This document shows, one piece after another, positions 6,362-56,646 of a DNA stretch of 64,000 nucleotides. The DNA lies in assembly GCA_007922195.1 (NCBI GenBank), contig ML682038.1:8463775-8527774 (forward strand), given 5' to 3'. How positions within the stretch are numbered: the first letter of the stretch is position 1; each line of letters opens with the position of its first letter. Position numbers and translations under genes: made by a program. Origin of the DNA: Podocnemis expansa. Its lineage: Eukaryota; Chordata; Testudines; Podocnemididae. The notes beneath the pieces were generated by a model, which saw only the letters and a program-made list of their open reading frames with translations, did no database searches and had not been told where the DNA came from.

Positions 6362-6548
6362 AATCAAGGATACTGGTGGCTCTTCTAAAGACTAATAAAT
6401 TTATTTATCACATCTTCTATCATCTGACAAAATGGCATTTTCTCCCATGAAAGCTCATGCAATAAATAAATTTGTTAGTCTTTAAAAGTGCCACCAGACT
6501 CCTTGTTTGTTTTGTTGAACTAGACTAGCGTGGCTACCCCTTTGGAAC
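6362..6548 (+). mobile_element. Twin-tail (head-to-head) Penelope-derived short element, copy A
   Basis: Flanked by a perfect 13-bp direct repeat TTGGAAAATGAAT (6349-6361 and 6549-6561). The right arm runs from CATCTGACAA (6421) through CCCATGAAAGCTCATGC and TTTGTTAGTCTTTAAAAG to CTACCCCTTTGGAAC. The left arm (about 6371-6411) is the inverted counterpart, shortened, ending ATTTATTTATCAC. Strand is given for the full-length arm. The tail is homologous to the 3' end of the Penelope copy at 40573-40702. Confidence 0.85.
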
Positions 6549-6561
6549 TTGGAAAATGAAT

Positions 6562-7850
6562 GAATACTTTATTTAGAGTAACATTTGCAGAAAGGCCTAA
6601 GTTAGTTATGATTCACATACACTAATAGCAGTTTAGTGCCAACTTCCCATCAATGGTTAGTGGGAAACAGGTGCTTAATAGGCATTTGTTCCATAGTAAA
6701 TCTCCCCCTGACTAAGTCCCATTTTAAAAAATGACTTAAGCATTTAGGAGCTGAAGTGCTGTTAAAAGTCGGTGGGTTTCAGGTTCCTATGGGACATTTG
6801 GAAGTTTGAGTTAAGTCAGTTAGGTGCTTTTGAAAATGTTATCCTTAGTTTTGTAAAATGGAACAGGAAGAACCCAGAACAACTGGAAAGTAATCCTTTT
6901 TTAAACAGTTCAGATTAGTTAGGGCAAAGTAAAAATTATTTTTCTTTGATGTTAAATGCCAGGATACAGATGCCTGAAATTCTTATTTATTAAAAGAGAA
7001 GATAAGAGGGGTAGTGGTAGTCATGACAATGTAGGAAAGCAAAATAGTCACCAACACTGTGGCTCTGCACTTAAAACATTTTTTTTCTTTTCAGTGTAAA
7101 TGCCATCCGTTCATGTGCTGTGACACAATCAACAGATATATTATGTGAGTTTAGTAGTCGCCTTTATAGTCTTTGAGTCCAAATCAACTTTCCATATTAA
7201 AGATATAATTAAACAAAAAACAAACAAACAAAAAAAAAACCCTAACCTCCCTCCTACCCCAAAAGAAGAACCCTGCTTTACTTGTCCTTTACCCTGGTGT
7301 GGATTAAGAAGTATCATGACTCTATTGCAATTCCTATTATGTGCACTGGATTAATTCTTCCTTGGTATTCTATATAAACTGAGCTCATGGGTGATTGCGT
7401 GAGGTCTGTGCAATGCATTTATACAGGACCTTGAACTTGCCCCAAATCAAAAACTTATGGTTCTCTTTTCATTTCAGATGTCACCCAAGGTCCACCAAAG
7501 AAATCAGCAGGCATGGGGTGATGCACTTTTTGCTTCAGATGCCATATTAGAGCCCATCTGCCCTTACTAGTGTTGTCTTTAGACACCTGGTGGCTTGCTT
7601 TCATTTCCTCTGAGATGGCTGCTCACTCCTCAGGAGGAGGAGTGATAAGAAAACCCTGTTATTCTGCTAACGCTTTAGGATTTCCAGGACTGGCAAGAAG
7701 CAACTTTCCACTTCATAGGGTAGCAATGTAGGGAGATAGCATCACCCTGTAGCTAGAAATTCCTTACAGGAAGAAACTAAATCTCCTAGTGAACCTGTGG
7801 AAGTTCATTCTGTACTTTCCCCTGAGAACAATCCCTGCGTAGCCTAATTC
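6562..7850. other. No gene or recognised repeat
   Basis: No bounded element is visible. An A-rich tract at about 7211-7240 (AAACAAACAAACAAA type) is present. The 69-codon frame at 7145-7354 runs through this tract and is not credible. Confidence 0.6.
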
Positions 7851-7858
7851 ATATAGTA

Positions 7859-9056
7859 CAGTGATTCCCAGCCTTTTTGAGTATGAGGATCTGTTTTTAA
7901 CCTCGAAAAATTTTGTGGGCCCCCAAATGATAATAGTTGTTATCAGGGACTGACTGCAGGCAGCGGTGCTGTAGATGGGCAGTGGAGGATGTGGCCCCCA
8001 CCTGCTCTTAAGGGGTAAGGACATATCTAGGTTATGGGTGCTCACAGTAAGTATATACAATTCATTTGGAGCACAGAAGTTAAACACCTTCAATGTAGGG
8101 GCCCACACTGGAAGGCAGGATACCTGTCATGGGCCATGTGGCTGCATGGGCTCCCCAACACTTTCCCCATCCATATTCACAGCACCATGGGCTCCCCTTT
8201 CACCTCCCCAGCTCTGCAGGCTCTCCCACACCTTTCCTCTTCCCTACCCTATGGGCTCTCCTTTGTCATGCTGGGTCCCTGACCCCCCCCGCCCCTCCCC
8301 TTCCCTTTCCACTTCCCCTACCTCCTGGTGGCAAGCAAAAAAATCAGTCTCAGTCACAGACAGCCAGGCTAGGCTCCTGACTCTCCCCTTCCCGCACATC
8401 ATTTTCAGTCATTCAGAAAGCTGGCCTTCAGTTGGCTCAATCCAGACTAACCTTTGTTTGATTGGCTTGTTCCCATGTGGGCGCCAGTCACTTTTTCGTT
8501 TTTTATTTGTGATTTGTGCAATGTGCTGTCAATCAACTTAACATGCTGACTGACTGACAGTGAACAGTTGGGTGGCGGGCCCATGTGGTGGCTCTCCAGA
8601 GCTGGCCTATCCTCCTGTGACTGAGAATCTGATTGGTTGGCAGACCACAGTAGAGCTGAGCCAGGATTGCCTGGAGTGCTTCCTTTGTTCCGCTGTGCTA
8701 TGCCTCAGATAAAGTGAGTGAGTCTGAGGCACGCCTCGCCCTGTTGTGCCGGGAGCCTGTCTTTGGAGTTTGCTGCTGCAGACAATCTCCATCTACAGCC
8801 CAGGCAGCAGGTCCATGGCCCAGATCAGTGCCCTTGGCAGGCCAGATCTGCCCCTACAGGCCATAATTTGACACCCCTGATTTAGAGCCCTCTCTAGAGC
8901 CTCCAACATGGATTGCTGGCCAGCAGTGGCTTGGGCCTGATCAGGCATGGGCTGCCTGCTGCTGTTGGCTTGGGTTGGGGCCAGATGTATTCACGAACCC
9001 CTTGCAATAACTCCGCAAACCCCCAGCAGTCATGGGTCATAGGTTGGGAACCACTG
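7859..9056. mobile_element. hAT-like element, 1.2 kb, no intact transposase
   Basis: The left end CAGTGATTCCCAGCC and right end GGTTGGGAACCACTG are near-perfect inverted termini of the common CAGTGGTTCCCAACC hAT type. Flanking 8-mers ATATAGTA (7851-7858) and AAATAGCA (9057-9064) agree at six of eight positions. The interior is GC-rich with pyrimidine tracts (8160-8330). It includes a second terminus-like word, TTTGACACCCCTGA near 8867-8880, which suggests another hAT end inserted inside. The frames at 7975-8541 and 8034-8282 show no transposase-like motif. Confidence 0.65.
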
Positions 9057-9064
9057 AAATAGCA

Positions 9065-9636
9065 CATGCACAGGGATTAAAGTACATAGTGTGCACAGTG
9101 GAAAGAGGGCCACTGGTGAAAGTTTTTGCAGTCTAAGCTCCACTGTAGACCTCAAACGAAGCCTGAGCTGAGGGACAGAAGAGTTGGAATTTGTTCGTAC
9201 ATTTTTACTCAGATTGATCTTGATTCTGTAGTGCTGAAGTAAACGGAAGCTTCACAGTTGACTTTAGTGGGCATAGGATGAGGCCTTCTCTTGCCTGTTC
9301 TTTTACTTTTGGTTCTTCCCTCAGCAGAAGACCCAACAAGTCCCACCCCCAGCCCAAGTTTTCAAATATAAGAAATTCAGATTTGTTTACGAGAATCTAA
9401 TTTAGGGGTCCTTGTTCAGAGGTTAATTGCTTTTATAAAAAGAAACAGGTAAAGATACATTTCCCCATAAGTGGCTAAAAAATCTGGGAGAAAGTCAGCA
9501 ATTCTGATGAAATAAAACAGAGGTCCCTGTTTTGCCACCTTTACTTATGCTGAATAGCATTAAAATAAATGGGAGTATTCAACATTAGCGAAGGTGTCAG
9601 GAACAGACCCCAAATAAACAAAAGAAAGGACACGTT
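9065..9636. other. No gene or recognised repeat
   Basis: Ordinary AT-rich sequence between two mobile elements. Nothing supportable is seen. Confidence 0.55.
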
Positions 9637-10150
9637 GGCTGTGTCTACACACAGAGAGTTAAAGTGATTTAACTTAAAGCGATCTAATTGAATTTCTATA
9701 AAAATTGTTAAAACGATTTAAGTTAAATCAATTTAACAGGTCCACACTAGAAAGTCAAATCAAACTAGCATGTCCAGGGACAGAACCTGCTAGTTCTATT
9801 TTGGAGAGGGGCACCATGGGAGATGTTGCAGGATGGCCCACTAGAAGGGCCATGTCCACACCCAATATAAGAAGAGAGAAAGGCACCCTGGGAAGGAGAA
9901 GGGCAGAAGTGTTAAATCGAAGAACCGTTAAATTGAAATAACACATCCACATTGTTATTTCGATATAAACGTTGCGATCTAAGCCTCGTTTCAATTTTCA
10001 ACTAAGTTTTATTAAATTGCTCTAATATCCCTTATTTCAAAATGATGGAGCTTGTCATTTTGAAATAAGAAAACATCATGTGGACCTAACCTTTTTAAAA
10101 TCGAAATAACCAGCGTTATCTCGCTTTAAAACCTGTGTGTGGACATACCC
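9637..10150. mobile_element. Palindromic-word MITE, TTAAATCG/ATTTCGAT type, with GC-rich centre
   Basis: Ends are GGCTGTGTCTACACACAG and CTGTGTGTGGACATACCC-like (right end at 10150). Flanking trinucleotides GTT and ATT are an imperfect pair. The outer parts are variants of TTTAACTTAAA and TTATTTCGA/TTTTGAAATAAG. The middle (about 9790-9915) is a unique block with GGAGAGGGGCACCATGGGAG and GGCACCCTGGGAAGGAGAAG. The same middle block occurs in the element at 15984, so the two are one subfamily. The opposed frames at 9705-9994 are artefacts of the inverted repeats. Confidence 0.75.
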
Positions 10151-12266
10151 ATTCAAGTGGAATAGCATTATGTTTCTCACTAAGGGCTCAGTTCTGTCAC
10201 CCTTATTCATGTTGAATAGTACCTTATCCCTATGATACTCCTACTTATTGAGGATACTGGCAGAATGGAGCCAATTGCTGAGGCAGAGACTAGAATGGAC
10301 TGGGACCTTATCTGATAACTGGGCCCTTCTTTACAGGTACGGTCGAGCCCTCAGTATCCATTCTAATAAATAACTCTAGATGTGCCGTAGTGAAACTTGT
10401 CAGCTGCTTTTCAGTTATTGGTAGAACAAGAGTATGAGTGCTGAACAGAAGTTAAAAACTGATGCTGTTTTGTGTTTGGTTTGGTTTGGTTGTTTTTGGT
10501 TTTGTTTTTTTTTAAAGCTTCCTCTTTTAAAGCTAGATGTCACTCAGAATGAATAAGCTGCAGAACTAGGCTCTCAGTGAGAATTATTGATCGCAATAAT
10601 GTGAACACAAATGCTTCCTTTCCTCTGATATCCTTATTGAGTTATCACACTCACTGCTGTGGGGACTATAGCAACACACCTTAGCATCACATTCTCTTCC
10701 AGTGGGTATGAATTTAAGGCAAAACTAGTCTCTCCCTCTGCAGGAAACACACTGGATGTGTGCCAAGCAGTTACTTAACCCCTATGTGGCATAAAAATTA
10801 GCTCCATGAAGGCCCCTCCAGAGTAGAGTGCAAGGTGTAGGAACCGGGGAGAGCATGAGTGGGCCAAGGGAGGAATGCCTGTGCACACATCTTCACATCC
10901 ATGGTTTCCCTATGAGTGAGTGTATGAAGGCTGGCACACACTATTCGAGATGTATTGTGCAAGAGAGGGAGGCTCAGCAGAGCAATTCAGGGGAGAACTT
11001 TATATGTCTGAGAGAACTAGGCTGTGTTTAGGAGGCATAACTGAGCCCTTGTTTGATATGCATGGTAATAAATGCCACTCTAGATGGGCCGTTTTGAGGT
11101 ATACCAGCTGCTTCTCCAGACACTGCTTATCAGTCATAGCTGGAATGAGAGGATGACATTTATGCTGGCTCAGGGTTATTTTTCTAGAGTTTCTTCTTAT
11201 CAGAGACCTAATGGACAGTGTCGGGTGAATTGTAAAACCAACACCAGTTAAGTAGACAGTACATCATCATTTACTGGAGGAGCATAATTTTTAGAGCTGA
11301 AGAGTGCTGAACTTTTTCCTGACAAACAATTGTTCTGCAAACACTTATGTATGTGTGTAAGTTAGTTCTTGCAGGACTGGGGCCTGCTAGTTCTGTGATG
11401 TCAGAACTCATCTTATTGTTATGAGAGCCAGGAAACTTGCATAATCTTTGAAATATGAAATGTGATTTTAAAAGTTCTTTTTTGGTGAACCAAATATGCC
11501 CCAGAATAAATGAATCCAAACATTTTTAGACTATATATAAAACAAAATTGGGAAGGCAACAAATGAAACTTATCAGTTATAAAGATGATGGTATGGATAG
11601 CCATAAAATCCTACACATAAAAAGATCCCTATTACTCCAGATTTGTGGCACAGTTATTTAATTTTGTAGATTTCAAAGTGCAAAATGAATTAATCCTCAT
11701 TGAAACTGAATATCCATTATATTAACTGCCAAGAAATACCGTAACATAGATATAAATGTTTGGCTTCCAGCTTGGACTTAAAAGGTTTCCCTTTATGTTC
11801 AAATAAACATTAGTAAATGGGATTCTAGGCTTTTAGGAAAGATTTGTTGGCTAGTCATCTTTTTCTGTAGTCTGCAAAATTTTACTTTATTTATAAACCA
11901 GAAGAAAGAATATGCACAGCTAAGTTTGAGATAACAATGAATTATTATTTATTTCAGTTATTTGAAAACTGCACTTAGTCCTACTAAAAAGGTTTATGGC
12001 AAAAGAAAAGCATAAACCTAAAATAAAGTGATCTATGTGAATTTTAATTAAAAATATCCCAATATTATATACTGATAAAAATACTCTGAGGTGGGTCTGA
12101 AGAGCTGTCTGGTTTGTTATTTAAATGTTAAGTTGTTTCAAAACATATTCATTGTTAAATGATTTATCTAAAATGCTAATTCATCTAAAAGCAAAGCTTT
12201 CCAGGGAACTGAAGCAGATATAACATTTTTAATTAAAGACTTTAATAGAATAAAGTTAATCTTTTA
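10151..12266. other. No gene; one diverged duplicated segment
   Basis: No coding exon or bounded mobile element is recognised. Two related segments at 10345-10415 and 11043-11117 share GAGCCC, TAATAAAT, CTCTAGATG, GCCGT and CAGCTGCTT in the same order and spacing. A T/G-rich tract lies near 10470-10515. Confidence 0.55.
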
Positions 12267-13775: not shown

Positions 13776-13834
13776 TTATTGACTTATTTAGGTTCAATCA
13801 CTGTGAGTCAGTTAAAAAAAAGTAGCAAATGTCC

Positions 13835-13856
13835 AAAAAAAAAAAAAAAAAAAAAA
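13835..13856. repeat. Poly-A run, 22 A
   Basis: An uninterrupted A tract lies just beyond the MITE. It is not attached to a recognisable SINE body. Confidence 0.9.
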
Positions 13857-15983: not shown

Positions 15984-16494
15984 GGCTATGTCTGCACTTA
16001 GACTGTTAAATCAATTTAACTTAAATCAATCTAATTGAATCGAAAAAAAATCATTAAATGAATTTAAATTACATTGATTTAACATGTCCCCACTAGAAAG
16101 CCAAAGTGAACTAGCATGTCCATGGACCGGACTTCCTAGTTTGATTTAGGAGAGGGGCATCTTGGGAGGTGTCGCAAGATGGCCCCCAAGAAGGGTCATG
16201 CCACCACCCAGTATAAAGGAGGAGGAAGGCACCCTGGGAGGGAGAAGGGCAAAAAGTGTTAAATCAAAATAACAGTTAAATTGAAATAACATGGCTATAC
16301 TGTGTTATTTCAAAATAATAATTTCGATTTAACCATCATTTTGATATAAAGCGAGGTTTTATTATTTCAAAATGACCGTTCCCTATTTTGAAATGAGGGA
16401 GCTCCTCATTTTGAAATAAGGAAATCTAGTATAGATATGCACTACTTTAAATGAAAATAATCATTATTTTGATTTAAAGTGTAGGTGTAGACAT
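15984..16494. mobile_element. Palindromic-word MITE, same subfamily as the one at 9637
   Basis: The left end is GGCTATGTCTGCACTTA and the right end GTGTAGACATTT (decayed). The body has GTTAAATCAATTTAAC and TTATTTCAAAATAATAATTTCGA variants. A central unique block has AGGAGAGGGGCATCTTGGG and GGCACCCTGGGAGGGAGAAG, matching the centre of the 9637 element. It sits immediately after a CR1 tail. No open frame. Confidence 0.75.
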
Positions 16495-16654
16495 TTGAAA
16501 GCTGTTCCTTTTATTTGGAGCTAGAGGATCTACACTGGGCAGTTACTGAACAATACTCAAGTGTACACTGTAACTTACAGTGCAGCGCTATTAGATAAGC
16601 CCCTAATCTCTCAATATGCAATACTAATGTGCCCATCACTGTGGTGTCTAGGTA

Positions 16655-16775
16655 CCATGTCATTTCTCTGTGCCTCATTTTCACAATCTGTGAAATGGAA
16701 GTAATATCATTTGCCTACCTCACAGTAAAATTGCGAGAATTAGTTAAGGTTTTGCATATTGCTTTCCAAATAGAG
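16655..16775 (+). repeat. MIR-like SINE fragment
   Basis: GTGCCTCATTTTCACAATC, TGTGAAATGGAAGTAATATC and TTGCCTACCTCACAG in this order match the conserved central part of MIR/CORE-SINEs (typically GTGCCTCAGTTTCC-x-ATCTGTAAAATGGGGATAAT). No flanking duplication is visible, as expected for such an old insertion. Confidence 0.65.
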
Positions 16776-19755: not shown

Positions 19756-19767
19756 CAAAAATTCTAA

Positions 19768-19985
19768 AACAAATGAGTCCTGTGGCACTTAAAAGATTTA
19801 ACACCTTTATTTATTGCAAGAGCTTTTGGTGGAAGAAAATCAACTTCTTCAAAGCATCTGACAAAGTGGGATATTGTCTCATGAAAGCACATGTGATAGA
19901 TAAATTTGTAAATCTTTAAGTGCCATAAGACATCTTGTTTGTTTTACTGAACTAGACTTAACACAGCTTCCCCTTTGGAACTTGG
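19768..19985 (+). mobile_element. Twin-tail Penelope-derived short element, copy B
   Basis: A perfect 12-bp direct repeat CAAAAATTCTAA flanks the block (19756-19767 and 19986-19997). The left arm starts AACAAATGAGTCCTGTGGCAC and the right arm starts near GCATCTGACAAAGTGGG (19853). The right arm ends ACAGCTTCCCCTTTGGAA. The arms are inverted relative to one another, and the right arm is about 45 bases longer at its outer end. The hammerhead-like core is mutated (CTGACAA). Confidence 0.88.
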
Positions 19986-19997
19986 CAAAAATTCTAA

Positions 19998-20690: not shown

Positions 20691-20697
20691 AACTACC

Positions 20698-20835
20698 TTG
20701 TTCCAAAAGGGAAGCCATGTTAGTCTAGTCCAGCAAAACAAACAATGCATCCTGTGGCAGTTTTAAAGACTAACAAATTTATCACATGAACTTTCATGGG
20801 AGAAAATCCCACTTTGTCAGATGCTTTGAAGAGTT
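20698..20835 (-). mobile_element. Single Penelope-type tail, reverse orientation
   Basis: Read on the minus strand this is the same tail as in copies A-E. It goes from GCATCTGACAAAGTGGGATT through CTCCCATGAAAGTTCATGTG and TTTGTTAGTCTTTAAAACTG to CATGGCTTCCCTTTTGGAAC. Only one arm is present, so this is either a solo tail or a twin element that lost its second arm. No clear flanking duplication was found. Confidence 0.75.
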
Positions 20836-22326: not shown

Positions 22327-22330
22327 ATCC

Positions 22331-24185: not shown

Positions 24186-24368
24186 CAGGGGTCTCAAACT
24201 CAAAACAAGGGCCACATGAGGACTAGTACATTAGCCTAAGGGCTGCACCACTGAAACCTTTTCAAATAATGATATTGCAAATATTGATGATGATAACATT
24301 GTTGCAGGGCTGCAGGAAATATCTTTGGAGCCACATGTGGCCTGTGGGCCACAAGTTTGAGACCCCTG
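24186..24368. mobile_element. hAT-like MITE, CAGGGGTCTCAAAC type
   Basis: Termini CAGGGGTCTCAAACTC and AGTTTGAGACCCCTG are inverted repeats. The flanks CTCCGTGG (24178-24185) and CTCTGTGG (24369-24376) agree at seven of eight positions. The 183-bp interior has GGGCCACATG and CATGTGGCC words. It abuts the next element, whose target duplication overlaps this one's. Confidence 0.88.
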
Positions 24369-24382
24369 CTCTGTGGTATATA

Positions 24383-24650
24383 AACAAGGAGTCCAGTGGC
24401 ACTTTTAAAGACTAACGCATTTATTTACAGCACGGGCTTTTGTGGGAGAAAATCCATCTTTGTCAGACACTTTTAAAGATGGGGGAACTTAAAAAATGGG
24501 AGAAGATCTCCCATCTTTAAAGTGCCTGATGAAGTGGGATTTTCTCCCACGAAAGCTTGTGCGATAAATAAATGTGTTAGTCTTTAAAAGTGCCACGGAA
24601 CTCCTTGCTTGTTTTGCTAAAATAGACTAACACAACTACCTGCTTGGAAT
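24383..24650 (+). mobile_element. Twin-tail Penelope-derived short element, copy C
   Basis: Flanks CTGTGGTATATA (24371-24382) and CTATGGTATATA (24651-24662) differ at one of 12 positions. The left arm starts AACAAGGAGTCCAGTGGCAC. The right arm has GCCTGATGAAGTGGGATTTT, CTCCCACGAAAGCTTGTGCG and TGTGTTAGTCTTTAAAAGTG. A small extra hairpin (CTTTTAAAGATGGG facing CCCATCTTTAAAG) joins the arms. This copy has the least damaged hammerhead-like core (24526-24554). Confidence 0.88.
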
Positions 24651-24662
24651 CTATGGTATATA

Positions 24663-32191: not shown

Positions 32192-32576
32192 GGCTATGTC
32201 TACACACACATCGTTATTTCAAAATAAGTATTTCAAAATGAGTTATTTAGAAATAAAGTCCTTATTTTGAAATAAGTTAATTCGAATTAAGAAAATGTTA
32301 ATTTGAATTAAGGGAAAGCCTGCTGTCGAAACGGCTGTTATTTCAAAATGGTTATTTCAAAACAACATGTCCAAACGGCCTTATTTCGAAATAACCATTT
32401 CGAAATAACAGCCGTTTCAAAATGAATGGGGTTTAAGCTGTTTTGAAACAACTGTTCTTATTTTGAAACGATGGATCCCGTCATTTCGAAATAAGAAAAC
32501 GTTGTGTGGACCTAATCTCTTTTATTTTGAAATAACCAGTGTTGTTTCGAAATAAAAGAGATGTGTAGACATACCC
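32192..32576. mobile_element. Palindromic-word MITE, TTATTTCGAAATAA type
   Basis: Termini are GGCTATGTCTACACACACAT and GATGTGTAGACATACCC. AAT lies immediately outside both ends. The interior is tiled by TTATTTCGAAATAA variants, including a perfect 14-bp copy at 32381-32394, plus a GGGAAAGCC unit near the left third. There is no coding content. Confidence 0.85.
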
Positions 32577-37904: not shown

Positions 37905-38846
37905 TGTAGTCACCATGAATAAGCCAGATTATGAACAAGAGGCTAATAGATAACTCTGTGACACCACATTCTACTAGCCACTTCTCTCTCATCCCATTGG
38001 GGAATACCAAAAGAAGCTATGTCATCTATTCAGGAAACTCCCCAAGGCACTACAGGAACAAATCTACACAAGCACACCCCTAGAGCCTTGATCTGGGATA
38101 TTCTGTCTGCTACCCAAGATCCATAAACCTAGAAATCCAGGGCACTGCATCATGTGGTACTGGCACTCATTTATAGCAAGCTTGTGTGGCTACATGGACT
38201 TTCTTCTCAGATCCTATGCTACTAGGACTAATAACTATCTTTGAGACACCACTGACTTCCTGAGAAAAATTCAATCCATCGTTGAGCTTCCAGAAAACAC
38301 CATCCTGACCACTATTGATGTAGAAGCTCTTTACACCAACATCCCATGCAAAGACAAAATACAAGCCATCAGGAACAGTATCCCAAAGGATGTCAAGGCA
38401 CCCCTAGAGCTGAACTTTGTGACTTTGTACTCACAACTATTTCAGATTTGGAGATGATTTATACTTTCAAGTCAATGCCAGTGCTAAGAGTACCCACATG
38501 TCCCCACAATATGCCAATGTTTTTATGATTGACTTAGAACAATGCTTTCTCAGCTCTCATTCCCAAGTGCCACTCTCTACTTATGCTACATTGATAACAT
38601 CTTCATGCTTTGGATCCACAGAAAGGAGGCTTTTCAGAAATTCAACAGAGATTTCAACAGTTTCTACCCCACTATCCACCTCAGCCTAAACCACTCCACA
38701 TGGGAGGTCCACTTCTTGAACACAGCAGCACAAATAAGTGATGGCCACATAAACATCACCGAATACCAGAAACCTTACTGACTGGTATACGTACCTAAAT
38801 CACTGAAACTTTCATCCTGGACATATCACACAATCCATTGTCTACA
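37905..38846 (+). pseudogene. Penelope-like element reverse transcriptase, copy 1, decayed and truncated
   Basis: Penelope-like elements encode a telomerase-related reverse transcriptase, usually followed by a GIY-YIG endonuclease. Conceptual reading across frameshifts gives an N-terminal NKPDYEQEANR segment and CDTTFY (37915-37975). A degraded LPKIHKP motif (CTACCCAAGATCCATAAACC) follows near 38112, then TTDFLRKIQS, then TTIDVEALYTNIP (about 38311-38346), CYIDNIFMLW (about 38586) and HSTWEVHFLNT. The active-site YxDD is read as YIDN here, so a key aspartate codon is changed. Several in-frame stops, for example near 38236 and 38457, break it. The copy stops after the SIVYS region and joins copy 2. 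The endonuclease part is missing. Confidence 0.85.
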
Positions 38847-40702
38847 GCTCGACCAGGGGTATTCTATCCACTACCCAAGATCCACAAACCTGGGAGTCCT
38901 GGATGCCCCATCATCTCGGGAATTGGCACTCTCACAGCAGGATTGTCAGGCTATGTGGATTCTCCTCTCAGGCCCTATGCCACCAGTAGTCCTAGCTATC
39001 TATGTGATACCACTGACTTCTTGAAAATACCACAGTCCATTGGTGATCTCCTGGAAAACACCATCCTAGCCACTATGCATGTTGAAGCCCTCTATACCAA
39101 CATACCTCACAAAGATGGACTACAAACCATCAAGGACAATTTCCCAGGTGATGACATGGCACACCTGGTACCTGAACTTTGAGACTTTGTCCTGACCCAC
39201 AACTACTTCAGATTTGGAGACGATATATACCTTCACATCACTGGCATGGCTATGGGTACCTGCATGGCCCCATAATATGCCAACATCTTTATGGCTGACC
39301 TAGAATATCGCTTCCTCATCTCCAAGTACCTCTCCTTTATCTATCTTACACTGATGACATTTTCATCATCTAGACCCATGCGAAAGTCTCTTGAAAAATT
39401 CCACTGGGTTTGCAACAATTTCCACCCCACCATCAACCTCAGCCTGGTGCAGTCCACACAAGAAATCCACTTCTTGGACACAACAGTACAAGTAAGGGAT
39501 GGACACATTAACACCATTCTATAGCAAAAACCAACTGACTGTAATACATAACTACATACATGCCTCTAGCTTTCACCCTGGCCACATTACATGATCCATC
39601 ATCTACAACCAAGCCTTAAGATACAATGAGATCTGATCCAATCCCTCAGACAGTGACAAACACCTATAAGAGCTCTATCAAACATTCCTAAAACTACAGT
39701 ACCCACCAGAGAAAGTGGAAAAAACAGATTGATGGAGCCAGATGGGTACCCAGAGTCACCTACTACAGGACAGACCCGACAAAGAAAGCAACAAAACACT
39801 ACTGGCCATCACCTACAGCTCCTAGCTAAAAGCCCTCTGACACATCATTAAAGATCTATAACCTATCCTAGAAGAATATCCCATACTCTCTCAAGCCCTG
39901 TGAGGGAGGCCAATCCTTGCTTACAGACAGCCGCCAATCTGAAGCAAATTCTCACCAGCAACCAAACAACGTACAGTAAGAACACTAAGCCAGGAACCTA
40001 TCCCTGCAACAAACCCCATTGCAACTCTGCTCGCACATCAGCTCGAGTGATACAATGACAGGTTCCAACCACAAAAGCCACACCATCAGGAGCTCATTCA
40101 CCTGCACATCCACAAATGTGATATATGCCTTCATGTCCTAGCAATACCGCTCTGCCATGTACATTGACAATACTTTATACAAAAGGATAAGGGCACACAA
40201 ACTGGACATCAAAAATGGCAACATCAATAAACCAGTAGGAGAATACTTCAATCTCCCTGGACACTCAGTAGCAAATTTGAAAGTTGCCATAATTCAACAA
40301 CAACAAACAACAACAAAACCTTCAGAACCAGACTTCAGTGTGAAACTGCAGAACTGGAACTGATTCGCAAACTTGACACAATCAGAATGGGTCTGAATAG
40401 AGATTTGGAATGGTTAGCACATTACAAAAAGTAATTATTCCTGTTCACACATTCTCACCTTCTAATCAACAGGTGTGAATGGCCCTCATCTTACCTAACT
40501 GAATTCATGTTGTTAATACTTGCCCTCCTTCATCCTGGCAAATGTATATATACCTCTAAACTCTAGTTTCCACTTTCTGCAACTAACAAAGTGGGTTGGA
40601 TCCCACGAAAGCTTATGCCCAAAGAAATTTATTAGTCTTTAAGGTGCCACTGCACTCTTGTTATTTTTGCTGAACACAGACTAACTTGGTTACCCCTCTG
40701 GA
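38847..40702 (+). pseudogene. Penelope-like element, copy 2: reverse transcriptase, GIY-YIG remnant and 3' tail
   Basis: The copy begins inside the ORF at RPGVFYPLPKIHKPGSPG (about 38850). It continues with DTTDFL, MHVEALYTNIPHKDG and, after a stop, FRFGDDIYL, GMAMGTCMAP and YANIFM (about 39240-39290). The catalytic YTDD is present at 39347-39358 but in a shifted frame relative to its upstream part. VQSTQEIHFLDTTVQ follows. A degraded endonuclease part has CNKPHC (about 40004-40021, a likely zinc ligand pair), MYIDNTLYKRIRAHKLD and KPVGEYFNLPGHS (40157-40270), matching the region after the GIY-YIG core of Penelope endonucleases. The GIY and YIG residues themselves are not clearly legible. The end, 40573-40702, is a non-coding tail with CCCACGAAAGCTTATGCCC, homologous to the short twin-tail elements. 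Multiple stops and frameshifts make it inactive. Confidence 0.88.
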
Positions 40703-42164
40703 AAATATGTTGATTTGTTTTTCTCCTGTAATACGTTACAATATATTCATTTGCTGGCTTTTATTGCCCAACATTTTATTTGACTCTGTTAACTTATAGG
40801 TGCCTTCTAGTTCTGTGTTTTCCCTACCTCACATACAAGTTTCCTTAGCTTTGTTTTGTTTTTTTATTATTTCTTTCCTACATTTATAATTGGAGCTGCT
40901 CAAGAGTTGGAGTTTAGGTTCACAAGCAATTCTAAGATTTTGACTAGTTTTTTACTAATCTGGGAATTGTTTGTAAAACAAAATGTTATATTTTGTTTAA
41001 CCTTTTTGAAATATTTTATTTTGATAAGGTTAAAATGTTTTCTTTATACTTTGTTTTGACTATTAAATCATATATCATATTTTTTGTTTCAAAATATATA
41101 GTGTAGTATAGTATCAATTATAATATACAATATAACATAAAAGTCAACATAATATTTCAGCCTGATTTAATTATCTTTGGTAATATCATGTTGAAATTTT
41201 TGATAAAATTGCTACATGCCATTAAACATTTCAATTTAGTCTAAGCAGCATTTTCTAACAGAAAACTGCTCAGTCAAATCAACGTGTGCCAGCACTACTT
41301 GTAACTGCTTTAAATCTTGTTGTATGCTTGCTTCGATATAATTTAGTCACTTCAATTTATGTAATTAAAATGATCCTTGTTTCCTCTTCCAGACTGCAAA
41401 TGAAGTTAACATCTTTCAGTTCTACTCCAAAAGATGACTATAAAAACAATATTACAAGGTTCCATGCTTTGTGTTTTCTCAGTTCTTTCCATATGAAATG
41501 TGTTCAGTGTCTCAGTAGAAAGATGATTTTTTTTTAACTTCCAGTCTTGCAAACTTAACTTTGGATACAGAAATCTATGTGTTTGTTTTAGTCCATATAT
41601 AATCACAAGTAATACAGATTCTTCAGATGAAACAGTGCTCTTAGATGACTTTAGTGGGTTTGCATGGCTATATTTTAGCATGTCATTTGAAAACATGTTT
41701 GCATTGATGGTGACACAAATAGAAATTAGTTAACAATTCTGTAGATTATGTAAAAAAAAAAAAAATCAATTTATTCTTCCAGGGTTATGCTGGTTTGGCA
41801 TGGTCTAGGGAAATAAAGCATACTACTGTTTTTATCCATAGGCATAGTTTGACTTCTGCATTTGGAGGGGTAAGTTGAGTCAAGCCAATGAGGCCATGGG
41901 ATGAGTGAAGAGGGGGAATTCCATGCCTACCCAAGGCTTGCAGTTTGGAGGGCAGTGTTCTCCCTGCTCCCCCAAAACATGCTCATGATTTTTCAGTCAA
42001 ATCAGCGAATAAGAATCTGAATATGCAAAAGGAAGCCAGTTGCTGAATGGAAAACTGCAATTGTTACATAGTGATTTTTTACAGTAGAATTGCAATTTTA
42101 ATAAGATTAGACCCAACATTAATCCAGGCAACATCCTTCAAACCAGAGGAGTCCTCACATAGAA
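40703..42164. other. No gene or recognised repeat
   Basis: Very AT-rich; opposed frames at 41286-41537 and 41406-41696 are unrecognised. An A run lies near 41752-41765. Confidence 0.55.
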
Positions 42165-42300: not shown

Positions 42301-42746
42301 CATCTCAGCTGTGCCAGAATGGCATGGGATAGGAGATTTGTTTCTCCTGCGAGTTCAGTGAGACTAACCAAGACTGCAAGAATTTGGAAGATCTGGGCCT
42401 TAATCTGATTGGATTATGTATTTTGTATAATCTCTGCATGTAGGTTTGATCCGGCAAAGCACCACCTGCTGAATTTTGAGAATCCATCACCAGAATTGCC
42501 ACCTCTCTCCAGGTTTTCCGACGAAGCTGTCCTAGGGTTCTCAAGTACACACTGCCAACTGTCCAGGTTTTATGGTCTCAGGATCATCCCAGATGTCCTA
42601 TTTTTTCCAGACCCCAGGATAGCAATCCTCTATTCCCCCTACAGTCATTGCATGGTGAAGACACCTCCTACCTTATCTTTACTTGTCTTTGCGAAGAATG
42701 GATCACTGTGAAAGGACAGCTGCCAGCAAAAGAACTTTGCTATATG

Positions 42747-42979
42747 TTAAAGAAGCAAGGAGTCCTGTGGCACTTAAAGACTAACAAATTCATTTATCGC
42801 ATGAGCTTTCATGGGAGAAAATCCCACTTTGTCAGACGCTTTGATGCTTCTTCAAAGTGTCTGACGAAGTGGGATTTTCTTCCATGAAAGTTCATGGGAT
42901 AAATAAATTTGTTAGTCTTTAGGTGTCACAGGACTCCTAGCTTCTTTCGCTGGACTAGACTAATGTGGCTGCCCCTTTG
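42747..42979 (+). mobile_element. Twin-tail Penelope-derived short element, copy D
   Basis: The 15-bp repeat GAACTTTGCTATATG flanks the block exactly (42732-42746, 42980-42994). The left arm begins near AAGCAAGGAGTCCTGTGGC and the right arm begins TTCAAAGTGTCTGACGAAG. The right arm ends GTGGCTGCCCCTTTG. The arms are highly similar, meeting at CGCTTTGATGCTTCTTCAAA, which makes this the cleanest example of the design. The right arm is longer than the left at the outer end. Confidence 0.92.
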
Positions 42980-42994
42980 GAACTTTGCTATATG

Positions 42995-45240: not shown

Positions 45241-45241
45241 T

Positions 45242-46772: not shown

Positions 46773-46780
46773 ATTTAAAA

Positions 46781-47006
46781 AAGGGGTCTCAAACACATGG
46801 CCCGAGGGCCACCTGTAGCCCCAAAAGTTACTTTTTGAGGCTTGCAATGACGCTATTGCTATCAATATTTGCAATACTGTTGTATGAAAAGGTTTCAGTG
46901 ATGCAGCCCTTGCGCTACCATACTAGTCCTCATGTGCGGCGCAGTCCTTGGGCTAATGGACTAGTCCTCATACGGCCGTCATGGTGATTTGAGTTTGAGA
47001 CCCCTG
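46781..47006. mobile_element. hAT-like MITE with perfect 8-bp target duplication
   Basis: Ends AAGGGGTCTCAAACACATGG and TTTGAGTTTGAGACCCCTG are inverted repeats of the CAGGGGTCTCAAAC type. ATTTAAAA lies on both sides (46773-46780, 47007-47014). The 226-bp interior includes GGCCCGAGGGCCAC and CTAATGGACTAGTCCTCAT, related to the element at 24186. Confidence 0.92.
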
Positions 47007-47014
47007 ATTTAAAA

Positions 47015-49800: not shown

Positions 49801-49804
49801 AACA

Positions 49805-50960
49805 AAAATGAAATGTGTGTGATCTTGTCTCTGCACAAATGAAAGGTATGAGGGAATAAACAGGAAGAACTGGAAGCACTAGAACATAAACTTAACGATG
49901 ACTTAATCAGCGTCAGGTGAGAGAAATCTCAAGACTGCAGTATTGGTTTAGAGTGTACTGCTCATTCAGAAAGGACAGGCATTACATGTCAAGAACATGT
50001 ATGTTCTGAAGTCCAGAACAAGATGTCGGTCAAGTGAAAAGTATTTAGATGAAGATAAATTGTGGGGGAAGAATAGACCCCCTACCATGACCTACTGTAT
50101 TCCACCAAATCAAGAGGGGGATGAGGCATTTCTAGAACAAATAACAGAAATAGCCAAAACTGAAGACCTTAACAACCCAGACATCTTTGTTGACAAAGTA
50201 ATATGAGAAAACACAAGTAATATATTGTGGACAACTTTTTTCTTTCAGAAAGTAGAAAAAAGTAAGCGGAGGAACAGTCATTTTAGACTTGATTTTGACT
50301 AACAGAAAGAATTGGTTTTGAATCTGAAAGCAGACACAATTTAGTGCCAGTGTCATGAAATAATAGATTTCATGATCCTAAGGAAGAAAGGAGCAGAATA
50401 AGGACAATGGACTTCAAACCTAACCCCCCAGTGGTAGATGAGGTCCTGTGGGAAGAAAAGTGAAGGGATAAAGGAGTTCAGAACAGCTGACAATTTCTTC
50501 AGGAGACAATAAAGCCATAACTGCCAACTGTTCCGATGAGAAGAACAGATAGGAATAATTAAGTAAGAGGCTGATACAGTTCTGTCAGGAGCTCTTTAAT
50601 GGCCTCAAAATCAAAGAGGAATCTTGCAAAATGTAGAAACATGGATAAATTGCTAAGGAGGAAGGCTTAAAAAAAAATCAATCATGTAGGGACAAGTCAG
50701 AAAGGACCAAAATGAGAAATGCTTAGCAAAGACCATTCGACAATAACATTCTTTAGCTATGCTAGGAGGAAGAAAAAGACAGAGGGGAGTGCAGGCTGCT
50801 GAGTGAGGGAGAATAACTGACAGCAGGAAGAGTGAGATGTTTAAAGCTTATTTGCTTTAGTATTCCTTAAAAAGGTTAAGATGACCAGATACTCAACACA
50901 CCACTAATATATATAACAAGCAGGAAATAACACAAGCCAAAATAGAAAAATAACAGGTTT
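49805..50960 (+). pseudogene. CR1 LINE ORF2, endonuclease and start of RT region, decayed
   Basis: CR1 ORF2 encodes an apurinic-type endonuclease followed by a reverse transcriptase. The translated piece TYCIPPNQEGDEAFLEQI (within 49997-50206) matches the YYRPPNQ-x-EEIDEAF region of the CR1 endonuclease. ATGAAATAATAGATTTCATGAT (about 50354) corresponds to the SDH-containing end of that domain. The downstream AAGTCAGAAAGGACCAAAATG and CTATGCTAGGAGGAAG stretch (50690-50775) fits the linker before the RT. Stops and indels are frequent. The element continues at 51815-52830 on the other side of a MITE. Confidence 0.7.
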
Positions 50961-51418
50961 AAGAATATTGAGGTCATTGTATTAGTCAGCATTGCCTAAT
51001 GAACTTTGTCATTTGTTTCAGATAGTTCCTTAAGTACCAATCTTGGAACCACTAGTGTAACAGGGAGGCTGGCTCTCTGAGTTACAGTTTGGTATTAAGC
51101 CAACCCTGGTAGCAGGATGAGCCTCAGCTGAATGGCATCAAGAAATATATGATAAAGGGCAGCAGGTAACTTCTCAAAAAAGAGACTGGCAAAGCTCGAG
51201 CTGGCTGGAAGCAGAAGCAGCTGCAGGGAGGGAAATTAGTTTTTGCACTGTGCCCAGTGCTGGGAAAGAGGGCTGGGAACCATCCCTGCCTCCTAACTAT
51301 CAGGAGCAACAGAGAAGCGGGGCTGGGACCTGGAGAGCCTCCATATGTGTCAAGAATGACCCTTGGCTGCAAAGTAATGCTTGGGTGGCAGCCAGCCTTG
51401 TTACCATAGGAAATTATC
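50961..51418. other. No gene recognised; unclassified segment between CR1 part and MITE
   Basis: GC-richer stretch with GCTGGGAAAGAGGGCTGGG and CTGGGACCTGGAGAGCC. It may be divergent CR1 or another insertion. The opposed frames at 51124-51438 are not recognised. Confidence 0.4.
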
Positions 51419-51421
51419 TTT

Positions 51422-51810
51422 GGCAATATCTACACTAGCAAATTAGTCTGGATTCAGGAGGCTTAATCTGGACTAATTTGCTCCCTGTCTATACTAAGCT
51501 TTGGTTAATTCAAACTAGTTAGCTCGGCTGGTTAGTTTGATCTTAACACTTAGTTCGAACTTTAGTTCGAACTAGCACAATGTAGTTGTGCTAGTTCGAA
51601 CTAAGCGGCTAGTTTGAACTAGCCACAATTTTCAGTTTGAACTAACTTTTAGTTTGAACTAGCAATGCTTTTTTCAGTTCAAACTGAAAAAATAAAAATG
51701 TGGCTAGTTCAAATTAAAAATTTAGTTTGAACTAAAAAGCTGAGGTTAATTCAAACTAACTCTGAACTGCTAAGCAAGTCTGAACTAAGCAAGTAGATGT
51801 AGACATAGCC
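51422..51810. mobile_element. Palindromic-word MITE, AGTTCGAACT type, inserted in CR1
   Basis: Termini are GGCAATATCTACACTAGC and GATGTAGACATAGCC. The interior is tiled by TAGTTCGAACTA variants. A perfect 19-bp-arm hairpin lies at 51562-51580 and 51586-51604 with a 5-base loop. CR1 reverse-transcriptase sequence lies directly downstream and CR1 endonuclease sequence lies upstream. Confidence 0.82.
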
Positions 51811-51814
51811 ACTG

Positions 51815-52830
51815 AAACCTCATGAAGGATGGATGGTGTCCCAGAGGGCTGCAGAAGGGCAAACATAATACCTATCTTTTTAAAAGGAAGTAATAAGGAT
51901 CTGGGATGTCATAGATGGTTCATCCTAATTTGGATACCTGGAAAAATGCTGGAACAAGTTACTAAACAATCATTTTGTAAGTATCTAGAGGATTATAGAG
52001 GATATAATCATGTCAAACCAACCTTCTTTGACAGGGTTATTAGCTTAATGGATGGGTGAAAGAAGTAGATGTGGTCATCTCTTTATTTTTGTAAGGTTTT
52101 TGGCACAGTCCCATGCTACATGGTCAAAAGCAAACTAAGGAAATGTGGTGTAGATTAAATTACTATAAAGTAGATGTGCAACTGGATGAAAGATTGTACT
52201 TGAAGTCATTTGATAGCTACCTGTTCTGTCAATCTTGGGCATGTATCTAGTGGGTGCCTCACACTGGTATGTCATGAGTCTGGTACTAGTCAATATCTTC
52301 ATGAATGACTTGGAAAATGGACTGGAGAGTGTGCATATAAAATTCCAGTTTACCATTAAGTTGGTAAAGGTTGCAAGCACTTTTTGGTGGACAGGATTAA
52401 AATTCAATTAAAATTCAATAAATTCTCCAATTTGTCAAGGTAGGTTTGAACTTTATCTTGCTGGTTTCAGACCAAGATCAGTGCATATTACTTGACTTGG
52501 GAAGGAAAGGTCAAATAGACAACAAAATGGGAAGTAAGTAATTAGGTGGTAGTTCTGTTGAAAAGGATCTAGAGGCTATAGTGGATCACAAATTTAATGA
52601 GATACAATATGATGCTACTGTATGAAGCCAATATCCTTTTTGGATGTATTAATAGGAATGTTGCATATAAGATATTGAGTGGTAATTGTCCAATTGTACT
52701 TGGCACTGGTCAGGCCTCAGATGAAGTACTCTGTCCAGTTCTGGGGGCCACACTTCAGGGAAGATGTGAATAAAATAGTGTCAAGAGGAGAGCAACTAAA
52801 ATGATAAACTTACAAAATCCAACCTTGAGT
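51815..52830 (+). pseudogene. CR1 LINE ORF2, reverse transcriptase region, decayed
   Basis: Translation gives VPEGCRRANIIPIFLKGSNK (about 51838-51897), which matches the CR1 W-R-x-ANV-x-PIFKKG motif. LIWIPGKMLEQV follows, corresponding to S-V-x-GK-x-MEQ. GACTTGGAAAATGGACTGG (about 52307) is the FINDLE-x-G end of the palm region. GTCCAGTTCTGGGGGCC (52734-52750) is the Q-FWG-P motif near the C-terminal part. Frames shift repeatedly and stops are present. Confidence 0.85.
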
Positions 52831-52875
52831 CTTGAAAAAAAAAAGCGGAGGTGAGGCATACTTAGGGCTCAGTGT

Positions 52876-52950
52876 TATAGGAACATTGAAATTTAGAGCT
52901 GAAAGGAATGTGGAGAGGTCATCAAGTCCCACCTGAAAGAGGCAAGACCC
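52876..52950 (-). mobile_element. CR1 LINE 3' tail, minus strand
   Basis: TTTAGAGCTGAAAGGAATG then GAGAGGTCATCAAGTCCC is the reverse complement of the CR1 3' end. It lies opposite in orientation to the large CR1 fragment next to it, so it is a separate insertion. Confidence 0.65.
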
Positions 52951-54185
52951 AGAATAATTAAAAAGATGCATGTGCAGCAGCAGGAAATACTGCACTTCTT
53001 TTAGTTTCATCACTGCTGAATGTGGAAAAGGCAGGAGTCGTATTTCCATGGAAGATCTTTTCTCCTGGATTAGAAAGGGTAGTAATGAATTTATCCGCAG
53101 TCCTCCATATCCTGCCAGAAGACTGCAGAAGGCAGGGGGAGCCAACTGGTTGTTCTGGAAAACGCTGGCACCAACAGAGGTTATACACCACCTCTGTGCT
53201 CCAGAATAGAGGATACGGTAAAACAAAAGGTGGCAGGATTGTTCTGCTGTGAGGAAAATAATTGGAAAACTTTGATGGTTTGCTCTCCAGGCTCGCATAG
53301 CATTTTTAAGTTCATGCAAAGCTGAAACATCAGGAAAACTTGGAGAGCCATAGCTCTAATCAGCTTCTTCAGGTTCACAGAAAGCTATGTTTCAAGTTAA
53401 ATTAAACTCAGTTTCTTTCTTATTGGCACTGAAGAACATTTGTGCATATTTAAAATGTCAGGTCTATGAAATTGCATTTGTTTTTAGGATTTATGAATTA
53501 ACTTCATCATCCTGTTGCAAAGCTCTTGAGAATATGTGTCTGTATTGAGGACAAAGTGGTGCACAATGGCACCCCTTCAACATGGAAAGAGACTATCTTG
53601 CTGGTTTCAGAGGTTAGCTTAATGTAAATCAAAGTGATATTTGTTGGACCAAAATTATATCCTTTTAATAAAGATGTTACTGGGACTGTTCCGCTGATTT
53701 GGGCTATGTGGCTGAACTCAAATACCTAGTGGTATTGTTATGTCGGTTACTGAATATCAAGATTAATATTAAGCATTAATTGTAAATTAAGCCAGTCTGG
53801 AAACTATGAAAGTATAAGCAATGTCTCTCCCAGTTCATAAAATGGTATATATTCTGGTTTTCCTCCCCACCCTGGCATTTTATTGCAGTGATGTCATCTA
53901 TGTTGTTGCCTCCCAGTCTGTGCTTACTAAGCTCATGCAGTTGATCATTGTTTCTATTGTGGTAAATCATCATGACTTCTGGAAACATAATGAAAAACAT
54001 ATAGTAGTATCTTGGGTTTTTTACCTGCTGTAGGTATAAGGTATTTCTTCTTCTGGCACAGATGGAAGTCTCTATTTACAATGATCTGTCTGAGTCAGTT
54101 TGAAGGTATTGAAAGTTATGATTTTCTTCTGGCCTTGTCACTAGCCACATTGCCTGGTTTAAGTGGATGAATCACTACTGTTAAG
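52951..54185. other. No gene recognised
   Basis: Overlapping frames on both strands (52810-53319 minus, 169 codons; 52970-53252 plus) cross the CR1 tail boundary, so neither is a natural gene. No family motif is visible. Confidence 0.5.
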
Positions 54186-54189
54186 ATTA

Positions 54190-54610
54190 TCCTCCTGTCT
54201 TGTCACTCTGACCATCCCGTTCTTTCACCTCCCAGTATATTGTTTCCTTCTGTTGACCCCTGCTCCTCCATTGCATCATATATAATCTCCTTGCTTTTAA
54301 GGCCATTCACCACTTTGCCCCTCCTGGTTAGATTTACTAACCTACCAAGTGGCTGATCTTGGACCACCTCAAGAGCCAACTTTTCTGTATTAAGTATCTT
54401 TGGGCTTTCTTTCATGCCAGTCCCAACACATGGGGAAAGACTTTGCCATACTTCAGAAAGCCCACATCTTGTTTTCTTAAGTTCCTCCTTGAATCTTGCA
54501 TCTCTGCCTTGATGCTTACAAATTGCTACAATCCATCATTAGCTAGGCAAGTGGGAAGCTGAACTTTCTACTTGTTGAACTCTACTGGGAGACATCCTCA
54601 CTTGTCAATT
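54190..54610 (+). repeat. Possible old LINE (L2-like) C-terminal/3' fragment
   Basis: TCTCCTTGCTTTTAAGGCC, ATTCACCACTTTGCCCCTCC, TTCCTCCTTGAATCTTGC and CTGCCTTGATGCTTACAAAT resemble the CTCCTTCAAG-x-TGCTTACAAA pattern of an old LINE tail seen in reptiles. Order and spacing fit, but divergence is high and the family is uncertain. Confidence 0.35.
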
Positions 54611-56245
54611 GTTGTTGCTCCATTGAAAGCTATGAGTAAAGCTGTTTGTATCAGATGAGAATCTGCCCTATGCCTTTGCATGCAGTCACCATCCTAACCA
54701 CCCCCTACTTAACTCTTTTATTCTGTCTGATTCCTAAATTTTAAATTGTCATCTTTATTTGGCAGTACAGTATACACCATAATACAGCCCTCCTTTGTTC
54801 AAGGATCCCAAATGCAGCTGTAGTAGAAATTAGATTTGCATGGTTCAGAATCCTGTGTTTGTAATGTACTGTGTGACATAGCTCTTTACAGCTGTTTTGT
54901 CCTAAGCTTTTGCAGTTTTATAGGTGTGCTGGCTAATGGATGATCTTTATTCCTGAAATAGCACAATACAAATTATAACTAACCATTTCTACAGTGTCTA
55001 ACAGGCAATATATAAACAAATACTGTAGCTTTTGTGTTCACATGTATCATTTGCATGAAGAGTTCCACTCTGACAAGCATATATACAGATATTTGAAAAT
55101 TTATCCCAGATGGATTTAGTCCTCTAGTGATGTATGCACTAGGAGACATGATTTGTCTAAGTGCAGATAGAAATTACTTTTAATGAGATGAAAATATACC
55201 CCTGGGCTAGTAGCTGAACATTTATTTGTAACCTGCTCTTTGGTAGTGGAAACACTGAATGAAAATATTCCTTCATTCCCAGCTGGAGTAAGGGAGAACA
55301 ATATTAACTTTAATGTGAAAAATATAAATGTACTTCAGGGCTCACTTTGCCAGGTTTTTCTTGGATTATTTCCATGCCAATCACCTATTGTAATGGTTAT
55401 CCAAGTGTTGCTTGTATGTTTCATACTTGCCTTGAATTAAGGTTCTCAATGTTACTATAAATGGGTGACATCTAAAGATAATCCTCTAAAAGTAAGGATG
55501 CTGATGTAAAATTTATGCAAAGCATATTAAAGATTTATTGAACTTGAACATGTAACTTTGATCTTGGATCTTCCGAGGATGAAAAGTAGGAGGTCTAAGG
55601 GCATGATGCTTTATCCACATTTAGTATGACATACATATATTTCTTTACTTCTGCAGTGTATCTGGCACACAAGCCTCAGGGTTCTAAGAAATGTGGCTAC
55701 AAATAAGCCATTAAAAACAGAAGCTATAATAGCACAACTAGTGACAGCAAGCTGCTATAGAGTTGAATGCAAAATTTCTCCTTCATGCATTCTCATCGCA
55801 ACAACCTGCCTCCTACTCAAAGAGAGAAAACACTCCTCTGTGCAAGTTTGCTTTTGTATGCCATAAATTTGAAAAGTAAACAAATGCTGAGTTTCACCTC
55901 AAAGGATTCAGCAGTTGCATCTTGTGTATTGAGAAACACAGGGCTTCAGCATAGGAAATCCTGACATGCATGTTTTCAAAACAGTCATGCATTGGCTAGT
56001 TGTTCCAACACTGCCAAGATAGCTCACAGAGTAGGCTTTTATGTTTGACTTCAGGGTTCTGTGTTTTTATTTTCTGGATAACAGGCAATCAATGCACTGC
56101 AGTTCCAACTAGGTTGTGAAGGAAATCCTTCAAAAATCAAAAGGCCCTGTGGAATTCTTTAATGGATACAAACTTCATTGGTTTTCCAAGCTAGCACCTC
56201 ACTGACACTTTTGAGTAATGCAGCTTCTAAGTCATGAAGATAAGA
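54611..56245. other. No gene or recognised repeat
   Basis: AT-rich; no supported feature. Frames of 60-70 codons are unrecognised. Confidence 0.55.
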
Positions 56246-56259
56246 CAACATCTGGATGA

Positions 56260-56646
56260 GTTTGAAAGAGGTATCTGTGTCAGTCTAGTTCTGCAAAACA
56301 AACGAGGAATCCTGTGGCACTTTTTAAAGATTAACAAATTTATCATATAAGCTTTCATGGGAGAAAAATCCCACTTCATCAGATGCTCATCTTCCTCTAT
56401 ATGCTATTCCCTATGGTTTGAATCTAAACTGTTGCATTGATTTGCTATAACAGTCAAACCTGATCCTATGACTTGCACTTCCCTGCATGTATTTTCCTCC
56501 TATTCTGCAAGTTTCCCCACCTTCAAAGTGTCTGACGAAGTAAGATTTTTCTCCCATGAAAGCTCATGCAATAAATAAATTTTTAGTCTTTAAAATTAGC
56601 ATAGGACTCCTTTGTTTGTGAGTGGGGTTTTTTTTTTTTTTTGGCT
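56260..56646 (-). mobile_element. Twin-tail Penelope-derived short element, copy E, reversed and with long centre
   Basis: Flanks CAACATCTGGATGA (56246-56259) and CAACATTTGGATGA (56647-56660) differ at one of 14 positions. Here the full-length arm is on the minus strand at the left: GTCTAGTTCTGCAAAACAAA, then GGAATCCTGTGGCAC, then TCCCACTTCATCAGATGC. The right arm is shorter and ends with GGACTCCTTTGTTTG and a T run (56630-56642). About 130 bases separate the arms and include CTATTCTGCAAGTTTCCCC. The hammerhead-like core on the minus strand (56351-56382) reads CTGATGA ... CCCATGAAAGC. Confidence 0.85.

Follow-up and report, generated by a model that had tools for sequence, protein, structure and literature searches.

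Head-to-head Penelope-like tails in a turtle genome: probable direct products of two-sided target-primed reverse transcription

How does a retroelement tail come to stand twice, head to head, within a single target duplication? The question is raised by a 64,000-nt stretch of the Podocnemis expansa genome (contig ML682038.1, positions 8,463,775–8,527,774; hereafter the window), which carries five blocks of this kind. A preliminary description had reported them as inverted copies of the 3′ tail of one Penelope-like element (PLE), each lying between its own 12–15-bp direct repeat, and had taken them for independent insertions of an already inverted, non-autonomous unit moved by a PLE enzyme. All five blocks are present at these places, and a script comparing the flanks recovered all five repeats. 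Comparison of copies within the genome suggests instead that each block is probably the direct product of one PLE insertion by two-sided target-primed reverse transcription. The five copies, called units 1–5 below, and their target duplications as found by the script are as follows.

6349–6361 / 6549–6561: target duplication of unit 1, 13/13 identical, TTGGAAAATGAAT.
6362–6548, plus strand: unit 1, with a short inner-start arm on the left, inverted and strongly cut at its head, and a long tail arm on the right in direct orientation.
19756–19767 / 19986–19997: target duplication of unit 2, 12/12 identical.
19768–19985, plus strand: unit 2, with a short inverted arm on the left and a long tail arm on the right, and no spacer between them.
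24370–24382 / 24650–24662: target duplication of unit 3, 12/13 identical (one change).
24383–24649, plus strand: unit 3, with a short inverted arm on the left, a 38-nt centre and a long tail arm on the right.
42732–42746 / 42980–42994: target duplication of unit 4, 15/15 identical.
42747–42979, plus strand: unit 4, with a short inverted arm on the left, a 5-nt centre and a long tail arm on the right; query of the genome search.
56246–56259 / 56647–56660: target duplication of unit 5, 13/14 identical (one change).
56260–56646, minus strand: unit 5, with a long inverted tail arm on the left (to 56387) and a tail-less arm on the right (56521–56613).

The long arm lies on the right in four of these copies and on the left in unit 5. 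In unit 4, the segments 42749–42844 and 42852–42947 are 91% complementary over 96 nt; an arm profile places the arms at 42746–42844 and 42850–42984, the latter overlapping the duplication. The 133-nt centre of unit 5 consists mostly of about 110 nt of extra PLE 3′ untranslated region (3′UTR) upstream of the tail-less arm, and its short end is uncertain because about 30 T-rich bases without a match separate the short arm from the right duplication copy.

A genome search with unit 4, in which 40 of 4,575 first-look candidates were scored, gave at least 80 matches spread over 40 places, with the window's own counted. Most of them cover nearly the whole 233-bp unit at an identity of at least 79%, and a few lack end-to-end coverage. 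The sequence set analyzed here comprises 347,916 bases from this one genome, namely the window, 20 stretches of 10 kb and 26 flanked loci from the unit-4 search; the assembly containing the window spans 2.39 Gb. Arms were located by the arm profile, and pairs are named by locus and position (e.g. L007:2276). L001, L021, L024 and L028 are second views of places already in the set and were left out of the pair counts. The set holds 52 head-to-head pairs and 17 single arms. The 20 stretches, taken at round positions on 20 contigs already known from the unit-4 search and not a strictly random sample, hold 14 pairs and 9 single arms in 200 kb; extrapolation from these 14 pairs puts the genome total very roughly at 100,000–300,000 pairs, all subfamilies together.

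Does each pair sit in a duplication of its own? A duplication score of at least 9, at which we call a pair supported, was reached by 27/52 pairs, compared with 1.7% for mismatched flanks as the control. When the ends were set by the profile (the second method), 29/52 pairs reached this score against 3.2% for mismatched flanks; the 29 include two edge artefacts, L022:2 and L041:1, despite their score of 32. The duplications are 9–16 bp long (median 12). Their GC content, 30.5% over 28 duplications versus 42.7% in the flanks, points to an AT-rich target, and their ends mirror each other, T being first in 14/28 and A last in 15/28. Independent insertion, as had been proposed, is supported.

The supported pairs obey a simple rule at their ends. 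One arm is long and the other short in 27/27, the long arm ending at profile position 130–146 and the short arm at 69–103, or at 93–103 in 23 of the 27; these positions indicate two discrete ends per unit, one of each kind. The ends are about 37 bases apart (medians 134 and 97), so that the direction previously read from one longer arm stands, while the 45-base difference given with it does not. The second method returned the same rule in 27/27 pairs after removal of the two edge artefacts; in that method, where both ends of a pair came out long, one was reclassified as short when its profile position lay below 132 (L016 and L032). Eleven of the 27 supported pairs are not centred on a locus fetched by the unit-4 search (units 1–4, L006:2122, L007:2276, L007:2860, L033, L043, L031:9143 and L049), and all of these except L006:2122 and L049, that is nine, are supported by both methods. 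Irrespective of duplication, 47 of the 52 pairs are mixed and 5 are short-short by their profile ends, and no short-short pair has a convincing duplication.

Did the two arms of a pair arrive together? We compared the joined flanks of the 39 pairs scoring at least 7 with the full sequence set, and found two insertions into repeats that exist uninterrupted elsewhere: L007:2276-2637, in a PLE 3′UTR, and L033:5487-7139, in another repeat of no assigned family. These two sites gave 16 spanning matches in all, at 67–90% identity, one of them within L007. At both, the two arms arrived together, the paralogous empty sites containing neither; with the one duplication per pair, this bears out the earlier claim of joint entry. 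L007 also has a nested arrangement: at 2192-2802, a two-armed copy interrupts the 3′UTR of a second PLE copy, and another pair comes next, at 2860-3091.

Joint entry leads to the question whether the inverted unit is inherited from copy to copy, in which case inner and outer arms would form separate lineages. None was seen: the inner-arm and outer-arm consensus sequences are identical at 95/95 columns, and distances between different copies are alike for inner-inner (0.1742), outer-outer (0.1711) and inner-outer (0.1725) comparisons. The claim of an inherited unit fails in these tests. Within a copy, the two arms co-vary. In 49 of the 52 pairs (3 were left out because of too few shared columns), the mean distance between the arms of one copy was 0.1344, compared with 0.1717 (standard deviation [sd] 0.0039) for shuffled partners, and 0/20,000 shuffles were as low. 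The 23 pairs not centred on another unit-4-search locus, the query included, gave 0.1759 versus 0.2137 (sd 0.0073; 0/20,000), and a first pass on 31 copies pointed in the same direction (0.109 versus 0.131; 0/20,000). Outside CpG, TpG and CpA sites, 67 non-consensus bases are common to the two arms against 16.2 (sd 3.8) after shuffling, a fourfold excess.

The centres between the arms vary. They measure at most 21 nt (overlaps counted as negative) in 43/52 pairs and from 33 to 2,112 nt in the rest. For the centre tests, copies with long centres or cut heads were removed, which left 41 of 49 in the first test and, in the second, 34 of the 43 main-family copies. All of the main-family centres examined are distinct (34/34), and centres no more than two edits apart occur in 0/10 and 1/25 of the closest copy pairs by arm sequence and in 15/561 of all pairs. 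An inherited centre changed by substitutions alone should leave many more near-identical pairs at such divergence.

The nature of the arms is seen in L033 (5487-7139). Its tail-less arm passes the usual head and continues upstream for about 1.1 kb, entering a frame that gives a GIY-YIG match, while the tail arm overlaps it for 321 aligned bp, at 97.2% identity, before ending; the nearest other copy to these arms in the sequence set shows 93.3% identity over 195 bp. The frame (5814-6716) has its first residues in the inverted arm, before the junction, and its GIY-YIG match (E value 3.7e-4, 21.2 bits) falls just below the curated Pfam threshold of 22.6. Among its 106 homologues the best are mostly turtle records at 60–71%, and many carry PF00078, PF26215 or PF01541; PDB returned no relative. 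The continuity of one arm with this frame supports the attribution of mobility to a PLE. Unit 5, L007:2276 and L004:387 likewise have a tail-less arm that outreaches the tail arm on the 5′ side; the last of them has no convincing duplication, and in all three the extra centre sequence matches the 3′UTR of the L033 element. We therefore read both arms as reverse transcripts that were made from a single kind of RNA and cut independently, and simple fold-back copying is disfavoured for these four copies.

Positions 1–48 of the arm profile hold what may, by eye, be a hammerhead-like core (CTGANGA, a hairpin, GAAA and AGCT). Its stem looks compensated in divergent subfamilies, again by eye. Rfam reported no hammerhead in the window at the gathering score; at a loose threshold unit 4 gave only sub-threshold matches, mainly to microRNA-type hairpins, a single arm gave weak ones (E value 2.1 or worse), and no hammerhead was among them. 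The unit 4 palindrome itself (42800–42896, plus strand) resembles the MIR173 microRNA-precursor hairpin of Rfam (E value 3.6e-7, 40.2 bits, below the gathering score of 70), and palindromic units of this type, when transcribed, could feed small-RNA pathways.

A biochemical precedent exists in Anolis. In the study by Frangieh and colleagues (PMC11167929), both target strands were cleaved and extended by the purified PLE protein, and reverse transcription began at two internal RNA sites that lie next to each other, the genomic tail being the stretch between them. The insertions in the turtle agree with this Poseidon element in the AT-rich target and would share with it the cutting and extension of both strands and the two adjacent starts with the tail between; they differ from the in vitro reaction, for which the parts covered do not describe joining of the complementary DNAs (cDNAs), in that each supported insertion in the genome has used both kinds of start, once each. 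We therefore picture the following course, in line with this precedent. A PLE enzyme would cut both strands of an AT-rich site 9–16 bp apart, and each target 3′ end would serve as primer for a first-strand cDNA starting inside PLE RNA, whether on one molecule or on RNAs from one locus. One cDNA would begin at the outer start and become the long arm with tail; the other, the future short arm, would begin at the inner start, which lies about 37 bases further upstream. Both would usually run to a preferred 5′ limit, CTTCAAAG, sometimes stopping earlier and sometimes continuing into the 3′UTR or the open reading frame (ORF); the limit may mark either where the RNA begins or where the putative hammerhead hairpin halts reverse transcription. 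The cDNA heads would then be joined, so that two tails point outward from a variable centre within a single target duplication. As the inversion would be made anew at each insertion, no pre-inverted unit need be transcribed. Two-sided priming with head joining is the simplest account of orientation, duplication, asymmetry, arm identity, centres and unequal heads together.

We rejected the idea that the inner-start cDNA always runs further (a "convoy"), as L045:7390, L022:1498 and unit 2 show the opposite by eye. Three apparent single arms, L044, L027:2404 and L042:3220, have on reading an opposite arm that is very short or cut; for L044 and L027:2404, inspection by eye gives an inner arm of only about 11–17 nt. 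Two others, L037:8752 and L040, with duplication scores of 11 and 10, look like genuine single-arm insertions.

Several observations weigh against this course of events. The scores of L006:2122 and L049:648 drop from 10 and 9 to 5 in the second method. The short-short pairs are L022:2 and L041:1, both truncated at or close to the edge of a stretch, together with L037:1865, L038:6815 and L008:2157, whose duplication scores are 8, 4 and 7, and L016 and L032 are long at both profile ends and count as mixed by rule. The own partner is the nearest arm for just 10/49 copies, and copy-private bases are mostly one-armed, only 5/62 being found in both arms. The main result opposing a wholly fresh centre is that centre similarity correlates with arm similarity (rho 0.312, p 0.0045 in the 34 main-family copies; rho 0.485, p 0.001 in the wider set of 41), and some centre sequence may be inherited from source copies; a two-armed source transcribed from near its own centre would yield such a correlation. 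Finally, the start site in vitro is reported to show no difference between strands (PMC11167929), and the one-of-each rule is therefore not predicted by the in vitro work.

Could the pairs have arisen in other ways? A cDNA or antisense RNA template might fold back at its head and be copied again into an inverted arm, a self-priming route that has been proposed for rotifer PLEs (PMC3846280). It would account for arm identity within a copy and for centres that by eye are perfect short palindromes, e.g. L010 and L004:1496. We consider it unlikely, however, since a copied arm should not outreach its template on the 5′ side while missing only the tail, as the tail-less arm does in unit 5, L033, L007:2276 and L004:387, and since the short arm ends in a narrow range (23/27). 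Quite improbable, and already disfavoured above, is a stable inverted non-autonomous unit whose transcript, a hairpin RNA, serves a PLE enzyme as template over its full length. The abundance of nearly full-length matches in the genome search, the centre/arm correlation and a centre fragment that recurs by eye (ATGCTT or AAGCAT) speak for such a unit, from which the long/short asymmetry would follow automatically; it is contradicted by the lack of arm-specific lineages and the strong co-variation inside copies, by centres that differ even among the closest copies, and by the very different head lengths of the two arms. For these reasons, the earlier proposal that an already inverted unit moves is not retained.

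Gene conversion between the palindrome halves after insertion could be superimposed on either model and would produce similarity within copies, and the five private changes common to both arms are of the kind expected. An ongoing process should have left more than 5 of 62, though, and neither the unequal arm lengths nor the variable centres are explained by it, which makes a substantial role very unlikely. Least credible of all, and indeed barely so, are two separate adjacent tail insertions or a foldback or miniature inverted-repeat transposable element (MITE). Inverted outer ends with duplications superficially recall a DNA transposon; yet the duplication length varies, symmetric ends and a fixed length were not found, one arm is long and the other short, and a long copy contains a GIY-YIG match. 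Separate insertions are opposed by the one duplication surrounding both arms and are refuted for L007:2276-2637 and L033:5487-7139 by the uninterrupted repeat without both arms.

Two further features of the window belong to the same family or its relatives.

20700–20831, minus strand: single arm with a full tail and its head at CTTCAAAG, duplication score 6 (not convincing), absent from the preliminary description.
38087–40703, plus strand: decayed Penelope-like copy with partly duplicated reverse transcriptase (RT) segments and a related tail, 40579–40703, at its end.

The match of the arms to the tail at 40573–40702, from which mobilisation by a Penelope-like enzyme had been inferred, is real, but this is a divergent copy, 67% identical over 63 nt to 6488–6550. 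Its RT segments, 38087–38556 and 38848–39322, lie 761–766 bp apart and are 74–78% alike. They form a partial tandem duplication, which is on record for PLEs, and were assigned to a PLE, as putative RT, by motif reading; Pfam gave no match for the two window RT pieces tried. Unit 3 adjoins the end of a different 155-nt inverted repeat (24213–24367 and 46782–46936, 75% alike). A separate repeat with an internal palindrome (TTATTTC...GAAATAA) occurs at 10030–10112, 16381–16463 and 32456–32538, the later copies being 71% and 80% like the first.

How do the turtle pairs compare with known systems? In twin priming of L1, the RNA is also primed by the second target end, which leads to an inversion whose two parts derive from different RNA stretches. 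The turtle insertions would share the priming by the second target end, and differ in that both arms copy one RNA stretch from two starts. A closer counterpart is found in rotifers, where Pen2a of Adineta vaga and other PLEs (PMC3846280) have head-to-head pseudo-long terminal repeats (pLTRs), one of them inverted and with an optional 31-bp tail; the inverted pLTR of Pen2a is 37 bp shorter, duplications are 8–10 bp, and palindromes occur at inverted junctions. The preliminary description had left open whether the architecture had been named, and an inverted pLTR with an optional 3′ tail, the arrangement of the 52 pairs here, is thus already in print. In that paper, an ORF generally lies between the two pLTRs and the copy number is low; in contrast, most turtle copies are two arms only, and the family is very abundant. 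Metazoan retrozymes, short non-coding retroelements with hammerhead motifs for which PLEs are named as candidate helpers, are described in PMC7229834 as tandem copies, whereas the turtle pairs are head-to-head, no tandem arrangement was found and Rfam gave no hammerhead.

The structure is therefore known PLE anatomy, here in miniature and in high number. A categorically new structure is not warranted, and the valuable part is the genome-scale evidence on the origin of the inversion; we found no earlier publication of the arm test or of the one-of-each rule in the open-licence literature. The chances seem about even that a PLE complex synthesizes a first strand twice at each insertion, once per target strand and with each RNA start used once, and needs no separate second-strand priming; the tail would then be the footprint of this division, and the short two-armed insertions, perhaps some 100,000 in this genome, would record it. 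A head-to-head repeat family is, as a caution, not necessarily an inherited composite element. With many small two-armed copies, start-site use, arm concordance and junctions can be counted directly from a genome, which offers a direct way to test how a poorly understood class of retroelements enters DNA.

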